Positions 25,844 through 32,653 of a DNA stretch of 32,653 bases are shown here, one piece after another. The position numbers and the translations under genes were made by a program. Under the pieces are notes generated by a model. It searched no databases, was not told where the DNA came from, and was given only the letters and a program-made list of their open reading frames with translations. The first letter of the stretch is position 1; each line of letters starts with the position of its first letter. The stretch is from Bacteroidales bacterium Bact_19 (GTDB lineage Bacteria > Bacteroidota > Bacteroidia > Bacteroidales > ML635J-15), in NCBI GenBank assembly GCA_001603595.1, contig LUZK01000116.1, positions 1 through 32,653 on the forward strand. Reading direction: 5' to 3'.

Positions 25844-28800
25844 ATGGCTTTAGGATTTGATGCAGTAATATTCGATCTCGATGGCGTTATTACCGACACA
25901 GCTTCTGTTCATTGTTCGGCATGGAAACAAACTTTTGATGAAGTGCTGGAAAAATATTATCAAGAGAAAAACATTTCTGATTATAAATTTTTTGATCCTG
26001 AAAAAGATTATCTTTTGTATGTTGATGGTAAACCTCGGTACGACGGGGTTCAATCTTTTTTTGAATCAAGGGGCATAGAATTCCCTTATGGCAATCCTGA
26101 AGACTCTCCCGAAGAACTAACTATTTGCGGAATTGGTAATAAAAAGAATGTTTTGTTTAATAAAATTCTACAGGAAAGAGGTGCCGATGTTTTTGAAAGT
26201 ACTGTTGAACTTATCAAGCAATTAAAATCTCAAGATATAAAGATTGGCGTTGCCAGTAGCAGTAAAAATTGTATGGCTATTTTAAAGAGAGCAGGATTAG
26301 ATCATCTTTTTGAAGTTTTTGTTGATGGGATAGTTTCAGAAAAAGAATATTTAAAAGGGAAACCTGCTCCGGATATTTTTATAAATGCATGCGATAAACT
26401 TGGAGTTGATTATTACAGAACTGCCATAGTAGAAGATGCCGTGAGTGGCGTTGCAGCAGGTAAAGAAGGAAATTTTGGACTCATTATCGGTATTGCCAGA
26501 CATGATAATTCGCGTGAATTGAGAATAAATGGTGCTGATATTGTTGTGAGTGATCTTTCCGAGATTGACATCAAAACAATTCAGACATGGTTTGAGGCTG
26601 GATTGAAAGAAGATGGCTGGTGCCTAAAATATTTTGATTTTGATCCCGCAAAGGAAAAAAGCAGAGAATCCCTTTTGACTGTTGGAAACGGATTTTTTGC
26701 AAGTCGTGGTAATTTCTGCGAAGAGAAAGCTTCTCAATTTCATTATCCCGGAACATATATGGCAGGTGTTTATAATAAATTACCTTCGCAAGTTCAGGAT
26801 AAAATTGTTTTTAATGAAGACCTCGTAAATTGTCCAAATTGGTTATATACTACCTTTAAAATCGATGGCGAAGATTTTGTCAATTCTAACGAAATAAAAA
26901 TTCTCGATATAGAGCGAAACCTTGACATGAAAAAAGGAATTCTTTCAGGGTGGGCTTTAATCGAAGATAAAAAAGGCAGACGTACGATGATTGAATCAGT
27001 ACGTTTTATAAGTATGTTCGACCGAAATGTAGCCGGTATAGAATATAGTGTTACTCCTTTAAATTATTCTGCAAAAATTACTATTAAAACCGGAATTGAC
27101 GGCAATCTGATTAACGATGGTGTTGAACGTTACAGACAACTTAACCAGCAACATCTTGACAAAGCACAAACAGGACGCGAAGGTAATGTTATATGGTTAA
27201 AAACCTCAACCACACAATCAAAAATAAATATCGAAGTTGCTGCTAAACTATTTTCAAGTTTGGAAAACTATTATTTTGAAACTGTAGAAACTGAATCCGA
27301 AATAAATGCATATTTCGTTTCTGATGTAAAAGAGAATAAGGATTTTGTTGTCAGAAAAATAGTAGCATACAATAATAGTTTAAATCCGGTTAAAATTGAT
27401 GTCATCGAAAAAGCAAAAAGTTTTGAATTGTTATCCGACGAAATAAATAAATCTGTTGAAGAGTGGAAAAAAATATGGGAAGAGGCAGATATAAGTATCA
27501 ACGGAGACAGATTAGCACAGAAGTTATTAAGGCTGCATATATATCATACGATGATATCCGCATCAAAGCATATATGTGATCTTGATGTAAGTATTGGGGC
27601 AAGAGGATTACACGGTGAAGCATATCGCGGGCATATTTTCTGGGATGAATTGTTTATATTACCGTTTTATAATATTCATTTCCCTGAAATTACCAGATCT
27701 ATGCTGATGTATCGATACAGGCGACTTGATGCAGCCAGAAAATATGCTGCAGATAATGGTTACAGCGGAGCTATGTTTCCATGGCAAAGCGGAAGTACAG
27801 GTGAAGAAGAAACGCAAGAACTTCACTTAAATCCTAAATCAGGGAAATGGGGCCCCGATTACAGTCGTAATCAACGTCATGTTTCTCTGGCAATAGCATA
27901 CAATATTATAAGATATCATCAGGCTACCAATGATAATGAATTTATAAAAAAATACGGTATGGAGATGCTTGTCGAAATTTGTAGATTTTTTGTTTCGGCA
28001 TGTAAATATTCCGCAAAAGATTTCCGTTATCATACCGAGAATATGATGGGGCCAGATGAATTTCACGAAAAAGCTGAATACAGCGATGAGAGGGGGGGGC
28101 TTAGGGACAATGCCTACACTAACGTAATGCTCGCATGGACATTGAGTCAAACGCTTAACCTGTATTATAAATATAGAAATATAAAACCATGTGAACATTG
28201 TCCTTCTGAGGAGGAATTGAAAAGATGGAAAGATATCAGCGAGAACTTGAATGTTAATATTAGCGAAGAAGGAATAATAGAACAGTTTGACGGATATTTT
28301 AATTTAAAAGAATTGGATTGGGAATATTACAGACAGAAGTATGGTAATATCTATCGTATGGATAGAATTTTGAAAGCCGAAGGTGATGATCCTGATAAGT
28401 ATAAACTTTCAAAACAAGCTGATGTACTGATGATTTTCTATAATCTTAGTGATAAAGAAGTAAACGAAACATTTGTGCAATTGGGATATGAATTAAGTAA
28501 AGATTATCTCGAAAAGAATTTTTATTATTACTTAAAAAGGACTTCACATGGAAGCACCTTAAGCAGAATTGTTCATGCTTATGTCGCCAATAAACTCGAA
28601 TTGTATGATATAGCCGAAAAATTTTATCGGGAAGCTTTGATGAGTGATTATATTGATATTCAGGGAGGAACAACAGCAGAAGGGATACACTCGGGAGTTA
28701 TGGCTGCAACTGTTATGTATTTCTTAAATGTATATGCTGGAATAGAATTTAAGTCTAAAGTACTTTCTATTAATCCAAAGTTACCGGAAAAATTAGAAAG

Positions 28801-28966
28801 ACTAAAAGTAAGATTTATTTATCGAGGAGTTTCTTATAATCTAATTATTAATAGAGATTCATTTAATATTAAAACCTCTAATGATGTAGGTGTCAGCATT
28901 CTAAATACTCCTTGTGTAATAGAAAAAGATGAATGGTGGAATATTGACTTGCCATTAGAAGAATAA
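25844..28966 (+). CDS. HAD phosphatase/mutase - GH65 sugar phosphorylase fusion
   Basis: 1040 aa. Residues about 1-245 are a HAD enzyme of the beta-phosphoglucomutase subgroup: FDLDGVITDT with nucleophile D11 and acid/base D13, cap residues VHCSAWK as in beta-PGM, KGKPAPD and VEDAVSGV. From about 260 a glycoside hydrolase family 65 enzyme follows: N-terminal beta-sandwich, (alpha/alpha)6 barrel with catalytic Glu739 in MMGPDE, and probable phosphate-binding TSHGSTLS (900-907) and DIQGGTTAEGIH (938-949). GH65 phosphorylases split maltose, trehalose, kojibiose or similar to glucose plus beta-glucose 1-phosphate, and beta-PGM turns the latter into glucose 6-phosphate. The fusion would do both steps in the cytosol. 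The exact disaccharide cannot be read from sequence. A G8 tract lies at 28092-28099. Confidence 0.88.
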   Translation: MALGFDAVIFDLDGVITDTASVHCSAWKQTFDEVLEKYYQEKNISDYKFFDPEKDYLLYVDGKPRYDGVQSFFESRGIEFPYGNPEDSPEELTICGIGNKKNVLFNKILQERGADVFESTVELIKQLKSQDIKIGVASSSKNCMAILKRAGLDHLFEVFVDGIVSEKEYLKGKPAPDIFINACDKLGVDYYRTAIVEDAVSGVAAGKEGNFGLIIGIARHDNSRELRINGADIVVSDLSEIDIKTIQTWFEAGLKEDGWCLKYFDFDPAKEKSRESLLTVGNGFFASRGNFCEEKASQFHYPGTYMAGVYNKLPSQVQDKIVFNEDLVNCPNWLYTTFKIDGEDFVNSNEIKILDIERNLDMKKGILSGWALIEDKKGRRTMIESVRFISMFDRNVAGIEYSVTPLNYSAKITIKTGIDGNLINDGVERYRQLNQQHLDKAQTGREGNVIWLKTSTTQSKINIEVAAKLFSSLENYYFETVETESEINAYFVSDVKENKDFVVRKIVAYNNSLNPVKIDVIEKAKSFELLSDEINKSVEEWKKIWEEADISINGDRLAQKLLRLHIYHTMISASKHICDLDVSIGARGLHGEAYRGHIFWDELFILPFYNIHFPEITRSMLMYRYRRLDAARKYAADNGYSGAMFPWQSGSTGEEETQELHLNPKSGKWGPDYSRNQRHVSLAIAYNIIRYHQATNDNEFIKKYGMEMLVEICRFFVSACKYSAKDFRYHTENMMGPDEFHEKAEYSDERGGLRDNAYTNVMLAWTLSQTLNLYYKYRNIKPCEHCPSEEELKRWKDISENLNVNISEEGIIEQFDGYFNLKELDWEYYRQKYGNIYRMDRILKAEGDDPDKYKLSKQADVLMIFYNLSDKEVNETFVQLGYELSKDYLEKNFYYYLKRTSHGSTLSRIVHAYVANKLELYDIAEKFYREALMSDYIDIQGGTTAEGIHSGVMAATVMYFLNVYAGIEFKSKVLSINPKLPEKLERLKVRFIYRGVSYNLIINRDSFNIKTSNDVGVSILNTPCVIEKDEWWNIDLPLEE
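28092..28099 (+). repeat. G8 homopolymer inside the GH65 catalytic domain
   Basis: Eight consecutive G residues encode part of DERGGLRDNAY, 32 bp after the catalytic Glu739 codon. It stands out in DNA this AT-rich. Gain or loss of one G would frameshift the last roughly 290 residues. Confidence 0.9.
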
Positions 28967-28990
28967 TTATCTTAAAAAAAACTTTTGTTC

Positions 28991-30247
28991 GTGAATTTTC
29001 AAGAATTACGTGTGAATAAATTCTTGCTAAAGGTATTGGATGAATTGGAATTTGTTTATCCGACTCCAATTCAGAAAAAAACTTTTCGCAGAATTACTGC
29101 CGGCAAAGACGTTGTTGGTATTGCTCCAACTGGCACCGGTAAAACCTTTGCCTATCTTTTACCTCTATTGGGCATGCTTGAATTTTCTAAAGAAAAGCAT
29201 CCGCGAGCATTAATAGTGCTTCCTACTCGTGAGTTAGTTCTGCAGGTAAAAGAAGAGGCTTTAAAGCTTTGTAAATACAAAAGTTTACGAATCAAGGATG
29301 TTTATGGTGGAGCTAATATTAAAACACAAATTGAAAATTTAAATGATGGCGGCGTAGATATCATAGTTGGTACCCCCGTCCGTATTTTTGATATTGCTGT
29401 TACAGGTGTTATACGTTTTAGTAATATTAAGAAATTAGTTATTGATGAAGTTGATGAACTTCTAAGTCTTGGTTTTAGACCACAACTCGAACAAATTCTG
29501 GATATTTTACCGCAAAAGCGGCAAAATATCATGTTTTCCTCAACTCTTGATCAGGATATAGAGCAATTTATTAATAGATATTTTATTGAACCTGAAATTA
29601 TAAAAATCGAAGATGAAAATCCTCCGATAGAAAGAATAAAACATTTGCTTTATGAGGTTCCAAATATTAATACTAAAATTGAACTTCTGAAATTTTTACT
29701 TTCTAAAAATGAGTTTCGTAAAACATTGATTTTTGTTTCAGGTAAAAAACTTGCAGACTATACTTATGAAAAACTTAGGGAAGAAGGTTTTGATAATATT
29801 GGAGTTCTGCATTCAAACAAGGCACAAAATAACAGATTTAACACAATAAAATTATTTGAGAAGGGTAAAATTAAGGCACTTATAGCAACAGATGTTGTAT
29901 CAAGGGGTTTGGATTTTAAAGAAGTTAGTCATGTAATTCATCTTTCAGTTCCCGACTCTTATAACGATTTTATACATCGCGTAGGGCGTACAGGCAGGGC
30001 AGGAGCAGGAGGAACAGAAGTTTTAATGATTAGTTCTCTAGAAAAGCAACCTGAATTTATTTCTGATATTCCTTTTGAAAAGATAGAAATTCCGGATGGA
30101 ATTCTCGTTTCAACAGTTTTACTTGAAGAAGAAAAACAACTTAATCAACAGAAGAATCCTGTAAAAGTTCCCGATATTAAAAAAGGAGGTGGGGCTTTTC
30201 ATGAAGCTGGATTGAAAAAGAAAAGAATTCATAAAAGAAAAAAATAA
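28991..30247 (+). CDS. DEAD-box family ATP-dependent RNA helicase
   Basis: 418 aa from GTG 28991 (VNFQELRVN, read with fMet); a TTG two codons upstream is also possible. It unwinds RNA duplexes or remodels ribonucleoproteins with ATP. Motifs in order: Q-motif PTPIQ, motif I APTGTGKT, Ia PTREL, GG in YGGAN, Ib VGTPVRI, II DEVD in place of DEAD, III SST in place of SAT, IV LIFVSG, V ATDVVSRGLDF and VI HRVGRTGRAG. A short basic tail (KKKRIHKRKK) ends the protein and could contact RNA. No accessory RNA-binding domain such as DbpA is present. The gene begins 24 bp after the HAD-GH65 gene and is probably co-transcribed with it, with no evident functional link. Confidence 0.92.
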   Translation: MNFQELRVNKFLLKVLDELEFVYPTPIQKKTFRRITAGKDVVGIAPTGTGKTFAYLLPLLGMLEFSKEKHPRALIVLPTRELVLQVKEEALKLCKYKSLRIKDVYGGANIKTQIENLNDGGVDIIVGTPVRIFDIAVTGVIRFSNIKKLVIDEVDELLSLGFRPQLEQILDILPQKRQNIMFSSTLDQDIEQFINRYFIEPEIIKIEDENPPIERIKHLLYEVPNINTKIELLKFLLSKNEFRKTLIFVSGKKLADYTYEKLREEGFDNIGVLHSNKAQNNRFNTIKLFEKGKIKALIATDVVSRGLDFKEVSHVIHLSVPDSYNDFIHRVGRTGRAGAGGTEVLMISSLEKQPEFISDIPFEKIEIPDGILVSTVLLEEEKQLNQQKNPVKVPDIKKGGGAFHEAGLKKKRIHKRKK

Positions 30248-30283
30248 TCCCGACAGTTCATTTTTATTAAAGATTTGTCGGGA
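30248..30283 (-). terminator. Terminator between the helicase gene and frr (best on the minus strand)
   Basis: TCCCGACA at 30248-30255 and TGTCGGGA at 30276-30283 form a perfect 8-bp GC-rich stem with a 20-nt loop. On the minus strand the stem is followed by a T-rich run (complement of 30236-30247), giving a rho-independent terminator for pyrH-frr. On the + strand no T tract follows, so it may only stabilise the helicase mRNA 3' end. The T-rich tail overlaps the helicase stop region. Confidence 0.6.
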
Positions 30284-30334
30284 AAATATGGTAGATAAAA
30301 GTTTAGTTTTATCAGATATAAATAAAGATCAATT

Positions 30335-30895
30335 CTAAACAGTTAAAATTTCTTTTTCCTTAGCGGCTATAATTGTATCAACTTTTTTGATATAATCTTC
30401 ATGCATTTTATGGACTTTATCTTCACCGTCTTTGGCTAGGTCTTCACTTAAACCTTCTTTTTTTAGTTTTTTAATTTCTTCGATAGTGTCGCGTCGGGTA
30501 TTACGAATTGCAATTTTTGCTGTTTCACCAAGGCTTTTTATTTGTTTAACCAATTGTTTACGGCGTTCTTCGGTTAAAGGTGGTACAAGAATTCTTATAA
30601 CCTCACCATTGTTTTGGGGATTAAAACCTAAATTAGCAGCAAGAATAGCTTTTTCAATTGCAGAAATAGCGGATTTGTCCCAAGGTTGAATAAAAATTGT
30701 TTTTGCATCCGGAACCGAAACGTTTGCTATTTGTGATAAAGGAGACATTACACCATAGTATTCAACCTTGACAGAATCAAGCATTCCGGGATTTGCTTTT
30801 CCTGCTCTGACTTTTGATAATTCTTTTTCTAAATGTTGAAGAGCTCCAACCATTCCTTCTTTAGCGGTATCAATGTATAATTCAAGTTCTTCCAT
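30335..30895 (-). CDS. frr: Ribosome recycling factor
   Basis: 186 aa, full length. With EF-G it splits the post-termination ribosome so the subunits can be reused. The family pattern is clear: ELSKVRAGKANPGMLD at about 25-40, VSVPDAKTIFIQPWDKSAI at 59-77, IRILVPPLTEERRKQLVKQ at 99-118 and ETAKIAIRNTRRD at 122-135, with a helical C-terminus rich in charged residues. It begins 14 bp after pyrH ends, and the pyrH-frr order is conserved in many bacteria. The promoter before pyrH should serve both genes. Confidence 0.97.
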   Translation of the reverse strand: MEELELYIDTAKEGMVGALQHLEKELSKVRAGKANPGMLDSVKVEYYGVMSPLSQIANVSVPDAKTIFIQPWDKSAISAIEKAILAANLGFNPQNNGEVIRILVPPLTEERRKQLVKQIKSLGETAKIAIRNTRRDTIEEIKKLKKEGLSEDLAKDGEDKVHKMHEDYIKKVDTIIAAKEKEILTV

Positions 30896-30909
30896 AAATT
30901 TTCAATATT

Positions 30910-31638
30910 TTAGTTTATAATTTTTGTCCCAATATTTTCACTATTCAAAACTTTTAATAAATTTCCTTTTTTATCCATATTAAAAACCAAAATAGGCATA
31001 TTATTTTCTTTACATAAAGTAAAAGATGTTAAGTCCATTACTTTAAGATTTTTATTGTAAACTTCATCAAAAGATATTAAATCGTATTTTTTTGCTGAAG
31101 GATCCTTTTCCGGATCTGCCGTATAAACTCCGTCAACGCGTGTACCTTTTAACAAAACATCGGCTTCTATTTCAATCGCTCTTAATGCAGAGGCAGTATC
31201 AGTTGAAAAATATGGATTTCCTGTACCTCCAGCGAAAATACAGATGTAACCTTGCTCAAAAGCTTCAATAATTTTTGTTTTTGAAAAACGTTCGCCAACG
31301 GATTCAATTGTTACAGCAGTGAAAAGTTTCACCTTTGCTCCAATTGATTCTAAAGCACTTTGAAGAGCCATGGCATTAATTACTGTAGCTAACATTCCCA
31401 TCTGGTCGGCTTTTACCCTGTCGAATCCTTTAGCTTGACCTGATAATCCTCTAAAGATATTTCCTCCACCAATAACAATTCCAATTTCTGTTCCTAAATT
31501 AGCCGCTTCTTTAATTTGTTGGGCATAGTCTATTAAGACATTTTCGTCAAAACCCTGCTTTTTATTTCCGGCTAAAGATTCTCCACTTAATTTTAGCAAT
31601 ATCCTTTTGTATAATAACATCTTTACTGTGTTTTCCAT
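30910..31638 (-). CDS. pyrH: UMP kinase
   Basis: 242 aa from ATG 31638. It phosphorylates UMP to UDP in pyrimidine nucleotide synthesis and belongs to the amino-acid-kinase fold family. Motifs include KRILLKLSGESLAG at about 11-24, IGGGNIFRGL at 56-65 and ADQMGMLATVINA at 77-89; DTASALRAIE and GTRVDGVYTADPEKDP follow in the C-terminal half. The frame remains open to a TTG at 31650, but that codon lies inside the promoter's -7 element, so it cannot be the normal start. ATG 31620 (MLLYKRI) is a credible alternative and would leave a longer leader. It is cytosolic and co-transcribed with frr. Confidence 0.96.
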   Translation of the reverse strand: MENTVKMLLYKRILLKLSGESLAGNKKQGFDENVLIDYAQQIKEAANLGTEIGIVIGGGNIFRGLSGQAKGFDRVKADQMGMLATVINAMALQSALESIGAKVKLFTAVTIESVGERFSKTKIIEAFEQGYICIFAGGTGNPYFSTDTASALRAIEIEADVLLKGTRVDGVYTADPEKDPSAKKYDLISFDEVYNKNLKVMDLTSFTLCKENNMPILVFNMDKKGNLLKVLNSENIGTKIIN

Positions 31639-31647
31639 AACAATATG

Positions 31648-31676
31648 CAAAAATAATAAATTTCATTCTTAATCAA
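31648..31676 (-). promoter_or_regulatory. Promoter of the pyrH-frr operon
   Basis: On the minus strand a TTG (31676-31674), an 18-bp spacer and TATTTTTG (31655-31648) form a good two-part promoter. The -7 element ends 9 bp before ATG 31638. This decides against the upstream TTG start and leaves a leader of only a few bases, or about 20 if ATG 31620 is used. Confidence 0.55.
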
Positions 31677-31770
31677 TCCAAAGAAAAAATATTTTCTGAA
31701 ACTTTTATGGAATAGGCTTTGAGAATTAAAATCATTCGCTTTTTAATATTTTTACAAAACAAAAAAATAT

Positions 31771-31778
31771 TATCTTTG
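31771..31778 (+). promoter_or_regulatory. -7 element for the orphan gene at 31797
   Basis: TATCTTTG is an exact TAnnTTTG match, 18 bp before ATG 31797. The longer open frame beginning at 31719 would start upstream of it, so ATG 31797 is preferred. No clear upstream TTG is seen. Confidence 0.55.
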
Positions 31779-31796
31779 AATTATCAATTTTATATT

Positions 31797-32438
31797 ATGA
31801 AAGACGAAGAAAGGCTGATAAAACTAAAGAATATTTATGAAAAATATTTTGAACACCTTGAAGAAGATCTACAAATAGCAATCAGTACTCAGATTGATAA
31901 TTTTGAAAAAATAAACTCGTTCTACAAATTGTATGAGGAGCAAAGAACACATCTTGAAAGTGAAGTTATAAAGTTGTTTACAAAGGCAAAAAAATATTTT
32001 CAGCATTATTTTATGGCATTGTCAATGGCAATTGACAGGGAAGAAATTCCAGAGAATGTTGCGGAATATTACGGATTGAGCTATCCTTTTGAAATCCCTG
32101 ATACAAATGATTACGAAGAATTTCTTTTAAAAGCAAAAAATCTTTTTGAAGACGATCATAAAAGAATTTTAAACGGAGGTAAACACTTTACTAATCCTTC
32201 AATAGCTACAGTTAAGGTTTATGTTGAGAAATTTGAAGAAAAATATCTTGAATTTCAAAGTTTTATTAAAGCTAAAATTCCTAAAATTGAAAATATAGAA
32301 GCGATGAGACACACAACCGATAAGTTAATTTTTGAGATTACCGGAGAAAAAACAAATGAGACTAATCTTGTTGCAAAAAATGAAAAATCCCCAACTACAT
32401 CATCTAATTGCCAATTAAGTTTAGATTTTGATGTCTAA
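31797..32438 (+). CDS. Orphan helical protein with C-terminal clamp-binding-like motif
   Basis: 213 aa; no named domain recognised. It lacks a signal peptide and transmembrane segments, so it is probably cytosolic. Residues 1-75 are highly charged and predicted helical with coiled-coil character (EERLIKLKNIYEKYFEHLEED ... YKLYEEQRTHLESEVIKLFT). A middle part (about 80-180) is also helical. Residues about 185-205 are a polar, probably flexible tail, ending in QLSLDF at 206-211. This matches the QLxLxF hexapeptide that binds the replication sliding clamp (DnaN). A link to replication or repair is therefore suggested but rests on the short motif alone. It diverges from pyrH with its own promoter and is the last gene in the window. 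Confidence 0.75.
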   Translation: MKDEERLIKLKNIYEKYFEHLEEDLQIAISTQIDNFEKINSFYKLYEEQRTHLESEVIKLFTKAKKYFQHYFMALSMAIDREEIPENVAEYYGLSYPFEIPDTNDYEEFLLKAKNLFEDDHKRILNGGKHFTNPSIATVKVYVEKFEEKYLEFQSFIKAKIPKIENIEAMRHTTDKLIFEITGEKTNETNLVAKNEKSPTTSSNCQLSLDFDV

Positions 32439-32609
32439 TTTTTTCAGCGGATAAATTGCAAATTAAGGATTTAATCAGAAACTTTTACATAGTTTAAAAT
32501 GAATTATTGTGATTTCGATTAGCAAAAACATAATCTAAAAGGGATTCTGTAATTTTTTTGAAAAGTAGGGAGATATTATGTTAGGGAAAATTTTTTAAAA
32601 ATATCAAAA

Positions 32610-32634
32610 TTGTGTGAAAAATATTTTACCTTTG
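32610..32634 (+). promoter_or_regulatory. Promoter pointing out of the window
   Basis: TACCTTTG at 32627-32634 is an exact TAnnTTTG match, with a TTG at 32610-32612 (14-bp spacer, short). The 215 bp after the orphan gene hold no ORF I can support. The transcribed gene would begin beyond the right edge. Confidence 0.4.
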
Positions 32635-32653
32635 CAAAAAACTTTGATATTAA

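Follow-up and report, generated by a model that had tools for sequence, protein, structure and literature searches.

Near the end of the window, by which we mean the whole analysed stretch of 32,653 nucleotides, an orphan gene is flanked by a divergently oriented pair of familiar genes. The features of the region are the following:

30335 to 30895, minus strand: frr, ribosome recycling factor (Pfam RRF), adjoining the pyrH-type gene
30913 to 31626, minus strand: pyrH-type gene, the name being inferred (Pfam AA_kinase), divergent neighbour of the orphan gene
31797 to 32438, plus strand: coding sequence of the orphan protein, 213 amino acids plus stop, ATG start, drawn from the translation and the homologues
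31797 to 32360, plus strand: folded helical body, residues 1-188, acidic in the window's clade (AlphaFold2 model; body pI 5.3)
32361 to 32435, plus strand: disordered C-terminal tail, residues 189-213, pLDDT below 50, a poorly conserved linker
32412 to 32429, plus strand: clamp-binding-type motif QLSLDF, residues 206-211, read from the sequence and kept in the genus

The reading frame is open further upstream, as far as a TTG at 31719. The homologue in genome G004, 82% identical, has an equivalent ATG start, with merely 6 open codons ahead of it. Along the 182-codon body the two genes share 125 identical codons, and differ by 28 synonymous and 29 nonsynonymous changes, the pattern expected for a frame under selection. 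The AlphaFold2 model of the window protein (mean pLDDT 87) consists of helices only (residues 3-20, 23-80, 86-92, 106-125, 136-159 and 167-182), no strand of at least 3 residues being present, and the protein contains a single cysteine. In the model of L021, a long member from the same genus, the helical bundle lies between one strand at the N-terminal side and another at the C-terminal side, and residues 238-270 are disordered (pLDDT below 50). Judging from alignment and models, the window protein and its G004 homologue lack the N-terminal strand and the C-terminal strand region of the longer relatives, and still retain bundle and tail motif. An earlier note on this DNA, made from the sequence alone, had described a protein of no recognised family, with a helical body and a disordered tail, carrying QLSLDF within its last eight residues. 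These read QLSLDFDV, the motif covering residues 206-211, and the rest of the description holds as well: helices fall between residues 3 and 182, the tail has pLDDT below 50, and no family emerged in Pfam (over cut-off), NCBIfam or the sequence comparison with PDB. The same note had considered that a folded C-terminal domain might bury the motif; the tail is predicted to be disordered in both models.

Searches were extended to several collections. In Pfam nothing exceeds its cut-off for the window protein, the DinB-like family (PF05163) scoring 14.9 bits against a cut-off of 23, which does not support membership, and NCBIfam has no match. The best PDB match by sequence has E 0.056, and the family profile gives none. 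Foldseek returned no PDB match at E <= 0.001 with the model of the window protein or with a second model, and the latter had no match at the same limit in a viral structure library. The best VIA-align hits (Z 8.0) are helical bundles, in a range rated uninformative by the tool's own notes. Every match in PHROGs and PADLOC had E > 0.03, and the protein is unmatched among 50,697 phage records. In Pfam scans of 19 and 25 members, KHA, DUF4636, XLF, FliJ and others matched weakly, in 1-3 members each, and were set aside as inconsistent. Rfam has no match within 28000-32653, and sigma-70-type and terminator-like sites near the gene are no more frequent than in shuffles, other promoter types lying outside the scan. 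No account of the protein family, or of clamp partners in Bacteroidales, was found in the open-licence library searched. The family is unannotated, and the protein new, as far as Pfam, NCBIfam and that library show.

The divergent pyrH-frr pair lies upstream of the orphan gene at 8 of the 9 genus loci examined. Elsewhere the surroundings change. At 39 sampled loci with a called gene, a membrane-protease-like gene is found close downstream on the opposite strand in 16, and in 5 the orphan gene is preceded by a polyprenyl-synthetase-like gene and followed by a tatD-like one; a dus-like gene occurs among the neighbours in other genomes (all these genes were named by eye). In one part of the order, at L081, L087, L088, L089 and L090, the orphan gene sits between the polyprenyl-synthetase-like and tatD-like genes, all on one strand with short gaps or overlaps, in an operon-like manner. 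Operon logic was dropped as a clue to function because neighbours vary between clades. Neither the genus loci nor the 39 sampled loci point to a replication or repair pathway, so that the accessory role in replication or repair envisaged in the earlier note is not borne out by the neighbours, nor by the body, which has no match. Farther away in the window, positions 25844-28966 host an ORF of 1040 amino acids, with a HAD-type hydrolase domain and three domains of GH65 sugar phosphorylases/hydrolases.

Distribution of the family

Homologues were identified in 39 of the 61 genomes of the first search, that of the window included. The gene is present in 23 of 26 genomes of the window's genus, and the family in 123 of 247 genomes sampled from the order. 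Among 198 genomes sampled from the phylum, only the window's genome and one marginal match (56 columns, E 6e-4) were retrieved; but for this match, the family has so far been seen only in Bacteroidales. Three genus genomes yielded no match; the stated completeness of one of them, G025, is 99%, and the gene thus looks dispensable. Among the 80 best of 577 relatives, named carriers are mostly titled Bacteroidales or Bacteroidetes, and include two Prolixibacter strains and Salinivirgaceae bins; one is labelled Chitinophaga and one Rikenella, both being metagenome bins with titles as deposited. The usual member outside the genus starts with MPYRRLPNTDxAR.

The counts given below exclude members without a complete C-terminus (G008 in the genus cluster count), near-duplicates (identical over their final 120 or 150 residues), hits beyond the E limits, and the genomes G093, G121 and G130 (3 of the 123 order genomes). 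A set picked by similarity (the 80 best of 577 confirmed relatives) contributes 70 of the 180 unique members found outside the genus. The E limits leave aside a distant relative of the family, found in three copies per genome in G069, G130 and G170, in open frames of about 320 amino acids. Two such copies are L100 (5164-6144), the C-terminal part of which weakly matches CarbopepD_reg_2 (20 bits against 32.2), and L101 (5380-6336), which has no match.

The C-terminal motif in the genus and beyond it

Partners of the bacterial sliding clamp share the consensus Q-aliphatic-x-[LM]-(x)-[FL], as worded in PMC13254535, and PMC9690074 and PMC4549789 place such motifs at C-termini, often in unstructured regions. 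QLSLDF satisfies the strict form Q-aliphatic-x-[LM]-x-[FL]. Among the 21 unique tails of the genus the strict form fits 12, two as QLSLDF and ten only as QIPLF within QLQIPLF, a reading out of register with the other members; the remaining nine fail through F at position 4, and only 2 of 9 genus clusters comply. Since the tails with F at position 4 fall outside the strict consensus, the fit rests on what clamp partners look like in this lineage. MutS and the Y-family polymerases were used as local references; in other bacteria such segments of both proteins bind DnaN. The best-scoring MutS was read at loci L273-L299. In all 17 genus genomes examined it carries a segment of the form QLS[FIM]FQL, namely QLSFF in 14 genomes, QLSIF in two, among which the window's genome, and QLSMF in one. 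In ten other genomes of the order MutS has QLS[FI]F in five, and QMSFF, QIALF, QLSFI (twice) and QISLI in the others. Twenty-two Y-family polymerases display QLNLF (7), QLDLF, QLDMF and QQLNLF (one each), VQGNLF (9), and a terminal QLTFDW[CY] (3). The latter belongs to another type of Y-family polymerase, found in G007, G017 and G021 (L237, L241 and L240), others having QLNLF internally, and a Y-family polymerase from elsewhere in the order ends in QLQFNF. In the light of these variants there is nothing unusual, in this lineage, about F or I at position 4. A complete DnaN is encoded in the window's genome. The exact fit to the clamp-partner consensus claimed in the earlier note stands for QLSLDF, and the similar motifs of MutS and Y-family polymerases of the genus are consistent with it.

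Taken by itself, the string is weak evidence. Residue composition predicts a C-terminal QLxLxF for about 1e-4 of ORFs, yet 2 are present among the 183 ORFs of 239,703 bases from the window's genome, a non-random sample that includes the window. Besides the orphan protein it ends a DDE transposase (DUF4372 plus DDE_Tnp_1; L216:6330-7556), whose last residues are AQLQLKFNSS. Clamp binding has been reported for transposases of many IS families, often through a C-terminal motif (PMC4549789).

The real evidence is conservation. All 23 genus genomes having the gene encode a QLx[LFI]x[LF] end, the tail of G008 being taken from a second contig piece; in G012 a stop interrupts the frame of the body. 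The forms met are QLSLDF (2), QLQIPLF, QLKFDL or QLRFDL, either with or without FF, QLTFDF and QLQFSF. Clustering at 60% identity gives nine genus clusters, and each of the 9 has a Q-motif within its final 14 residues; shuffled tails have it in 0.4 clusters on average and in 3 at most, and none of 1000 shuffles reaches 9. In all nine the motif starts with Q followed by L. Identity between clusters is 63% in the motif, 11% in the 20 residues preceding it, and 48% over 159 ungapped alignment columns. At a shorter distance, the seven codons of QLSLDFD differ between window and G004 by one synonymous change and no nonsynonymous one, and the 23-codon linker by 9 nonsynonymous changes. The expectation, set out in the earlier note, that the motif would be conserved and the linker not, holds within the genus; most homologues elsewhere in the order lack the motif.

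Outside the genus a Q-motif, in a broad definition, has been found in the last 20 residues of 17 of 89 clusters, and is missing in 72. Its occurrence follows the length of the tail: none of 31 clusters with tails of at most 12 residues, 3 of 34 with 13-24 residues, and 14 of 24 with at least 25 residues have it, against 0.2, 0.7 and 0.8 in shuffled tails of the same classes. When the similarity-picked loci (drawn from the 80 best of 577) are left aside, the figures become 0 of 31, 1 of 25 and 12 of 22, against 0.2, 0.5 and 0.8. The broad pattern was widened after the tails had been seen, and admits loose cases such as QTSFPF and QTPFF, which makes the counts outside the genus softer than those within it. 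The strict consensus fits 1 of the 89 clusters, the shuffle mean being 0.4. The form which recurs outside the genus is QYS[ILF]xF. In a quick tree of 98 clusters, which does not tell gain from loss, the genus and two neighbours (with QFAFEF and QYTFAF) make up a clade of 11 clusters, all with the motif (SH-aLRT 96). The state of the motif changes many times elsewhere on the tree, with a minimum of 11 changes over the whole of it. The motif, as far as the sampled tails indicate, is not a family-wide trait. Homologues without the motif had been named in the earlier note as something that would refute its reading. Such homologues prevail outside the genus, so that the objection applies in part and the tether does not define the whole family; within the genus 23 of 23 genomes with the gene keep the motif.

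Bodies differ in charge along the same divide. Outside the genus 85 of 89 clusters have a body pI above 8 (median 9.5), and the median charge is +8 in the 17 clusters with the motif and +10 in those without it. Genus bodies are acidic in 9 of 9 clusters, with pI 4.8-5.3 and net charge between -13 and -6, and two sister clusters are slightly acidic (net charge -2 and -1). Neighbouring genes, used as a control, show no such difference (median pI 6.25 versus 6.39; 88 and 293 proteins). L168, which branches elsewhere on the tree, is acidic and has a long tail and no motif. The clade that never lacks the motif seems also to be the one whose charge reversed, and this looks like one main event. On these comparisons we hypothesize that an affinity for nucleic acids may have been exchanged for a clamp tether.

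A probable clamp-tethered adaptor and its alternatives

We regard it as likely that the window protein is a clamp-tethered helical adaptor. A flexible, unconserved tail would connect the helical-bundle body with a C-terminal peptide (QLSLDF in the window protein), and the peptide would dock on the DnaN sliding clamp, in the hydrophobic pocket that receives its partners. Docking may hold the body at newly replicated or repaired DNA, and the tethered protein would compete with polymerases and MutS for the DnaN pocket. The presence of a clamp-binding peptide in the window's clade is very probable, given the conservation described. A clamp client with a linear motif is a known kind of thing; the protein itself is new, as far as searched. 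As to the body, our best guess is a protein-protein role, as regulator or adaptor, because it is acidic, has no enzyme match and, with such a charge, would probably not grip DNA electrostatically. A DNA-binding role of the window protein itself was thought unlikely since the body is acidic. That the protein is a regulator comparable to Hda or YabA is a guess by analogy.

The alternative which survives best, and to which we give tentative credit, is that the family is one of nucleic-acid-binding helical proteins with an ancestral function independent of the clamp, the tether being a late, lineage-specific addition, real but minor. It is compatible with the basic bodies, by computed charge only, of nearly all clusters outside the genus, and with the short-tailed members, which stop soon after the C-terminal strand and never have the motif. 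Yet, QYS[ILF]xF recurs in several separated long-tailed clades, and an old motif lost many times along with the tail is an easier explanation of this pattern; because of this recurrence, such a history is plausible. The late-tether alternative can moreover coexist with the clamp-tethered adaptor as the reading for the window's clade.

We consider it unlikely that the end of the protein is a hydrophobic strand docking another protein or its own oligomer, with the likeness to clamp motifs due to a coincidence of alternating hydrophobic residues. Several tails do run on hydrophobic past the motif (QLTFDFVFPEN, QLKFDLFFPES), and would also suit strand pairing with another partner. The hydrophobic pattern exceeds six residues in several members (QLTFDFVF, LQYSILF, LQFAFEF), outside the genus Y or F often occupies position 2, and a pattern devoid of Q, [LIVM]x[LFIYM]x?F, is enriched there, occurring in 20 of 89 clusters versus 4.7 by shuffle. 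An amphipathic strand, however, needs neither the Q nor the L which are invariant in the genus, and Y-family polymerases of the genus or order terminate in comparable peptides (QLTFDW, QLQFNF). Mere chance is very improbable: the string is short and one other sampled ORF ends alike, but the motif form is kept wherever the genus has the gene while the linker drifts, and that other ORF encodes a transposase, transposases having been reported as clamp binders.

Going beyond the clamp-tethered adaptor, a bolder scenario can be drawn, to which we assign a low probability. The family would have started out as a basic, nucleic-acid-binding helical one with an optional clamp peptide; in one clade, where the body became acidic and the peptide invariant, association with DNA would have been exchanged for the tether. 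The protein could then fill, in Bacteroidota, the vacant place of Hda or YabA, coupling a decision on initiation or repair to the clamp. Whatever the scenario, the family offers a natural series in which the motif is fixed, variable or absent, together with a locally calibrated motif code, in about half of the sampled genomes of the order. With its named Prolixibacter carriers it opens a direct route to learning which factors are attached to the clamp in Bacteroidota, and lets one ask whether a protein can swap its own affinity for DNA for a clamp tether.

Most known clamp clients come from Proteobacteria and Firmicutes. Hda has an AAA+ body; the orphan protein has no AAA match in Pfam and is modelled as helices only, and is thus not a member of this group of initiator regulators. 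What is alike is the hexapeptide. PMC3836487 gives QLSLPL as the peptide which E. coli Hda needs for clamp contact and QFKLPL as that of Caulobacter HdaA, and this source and PMC12309361 present QLSLPL as a tight-binding hexapeptide; the peptide of the orphan protein is of the same make. Hda is a regulator carried by the clamp rather than an enzyme of synthesis, as the orphan protein may be. In contrast, the motif is N-terminal in Hda (PMC3836487) and C-terminal in the orphan protein, and the DnaA-like body of Hda (PMC9690074) differs from an all-helical one without AAA+ match in Pfam.

B. subtilis YabA is described in PMC4705661 as a hub made of a helical bundle and flexible linkers, contacting both DnaA and DnaN. 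Helical-bundle part, flexible linkers and DnaN contact, the latter only predicted for the orphan protein, are similarly combined in one small protein. YabA, however, contacts DnaN through a small zinc-binding C-terminal domain (same source), and the orphan protein would do so through a tail peptide. Membership in the YabA family was discarded, as the orphan protein has no YabA match in Pfam, a disordered C-terminus and a single cysteine.

Y-family polymerases ending in QLTFDW (3 genus genomes) or QLQFNF (1 order genome) have a similar motif at the extreme C-terminus; they are polymerases, with bodies unrelated to the orphan body. IS transposases resemble the orphan protein in that their C-terminal tail bears a short motif which differs among relatives, and these clamp motifs are thought to have arisen repeatedly (both points from PMC4549789). 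Unlike these mobile enzymes, the orphan gene keeps its place beside pyrH at 8 of 9 genus loci.
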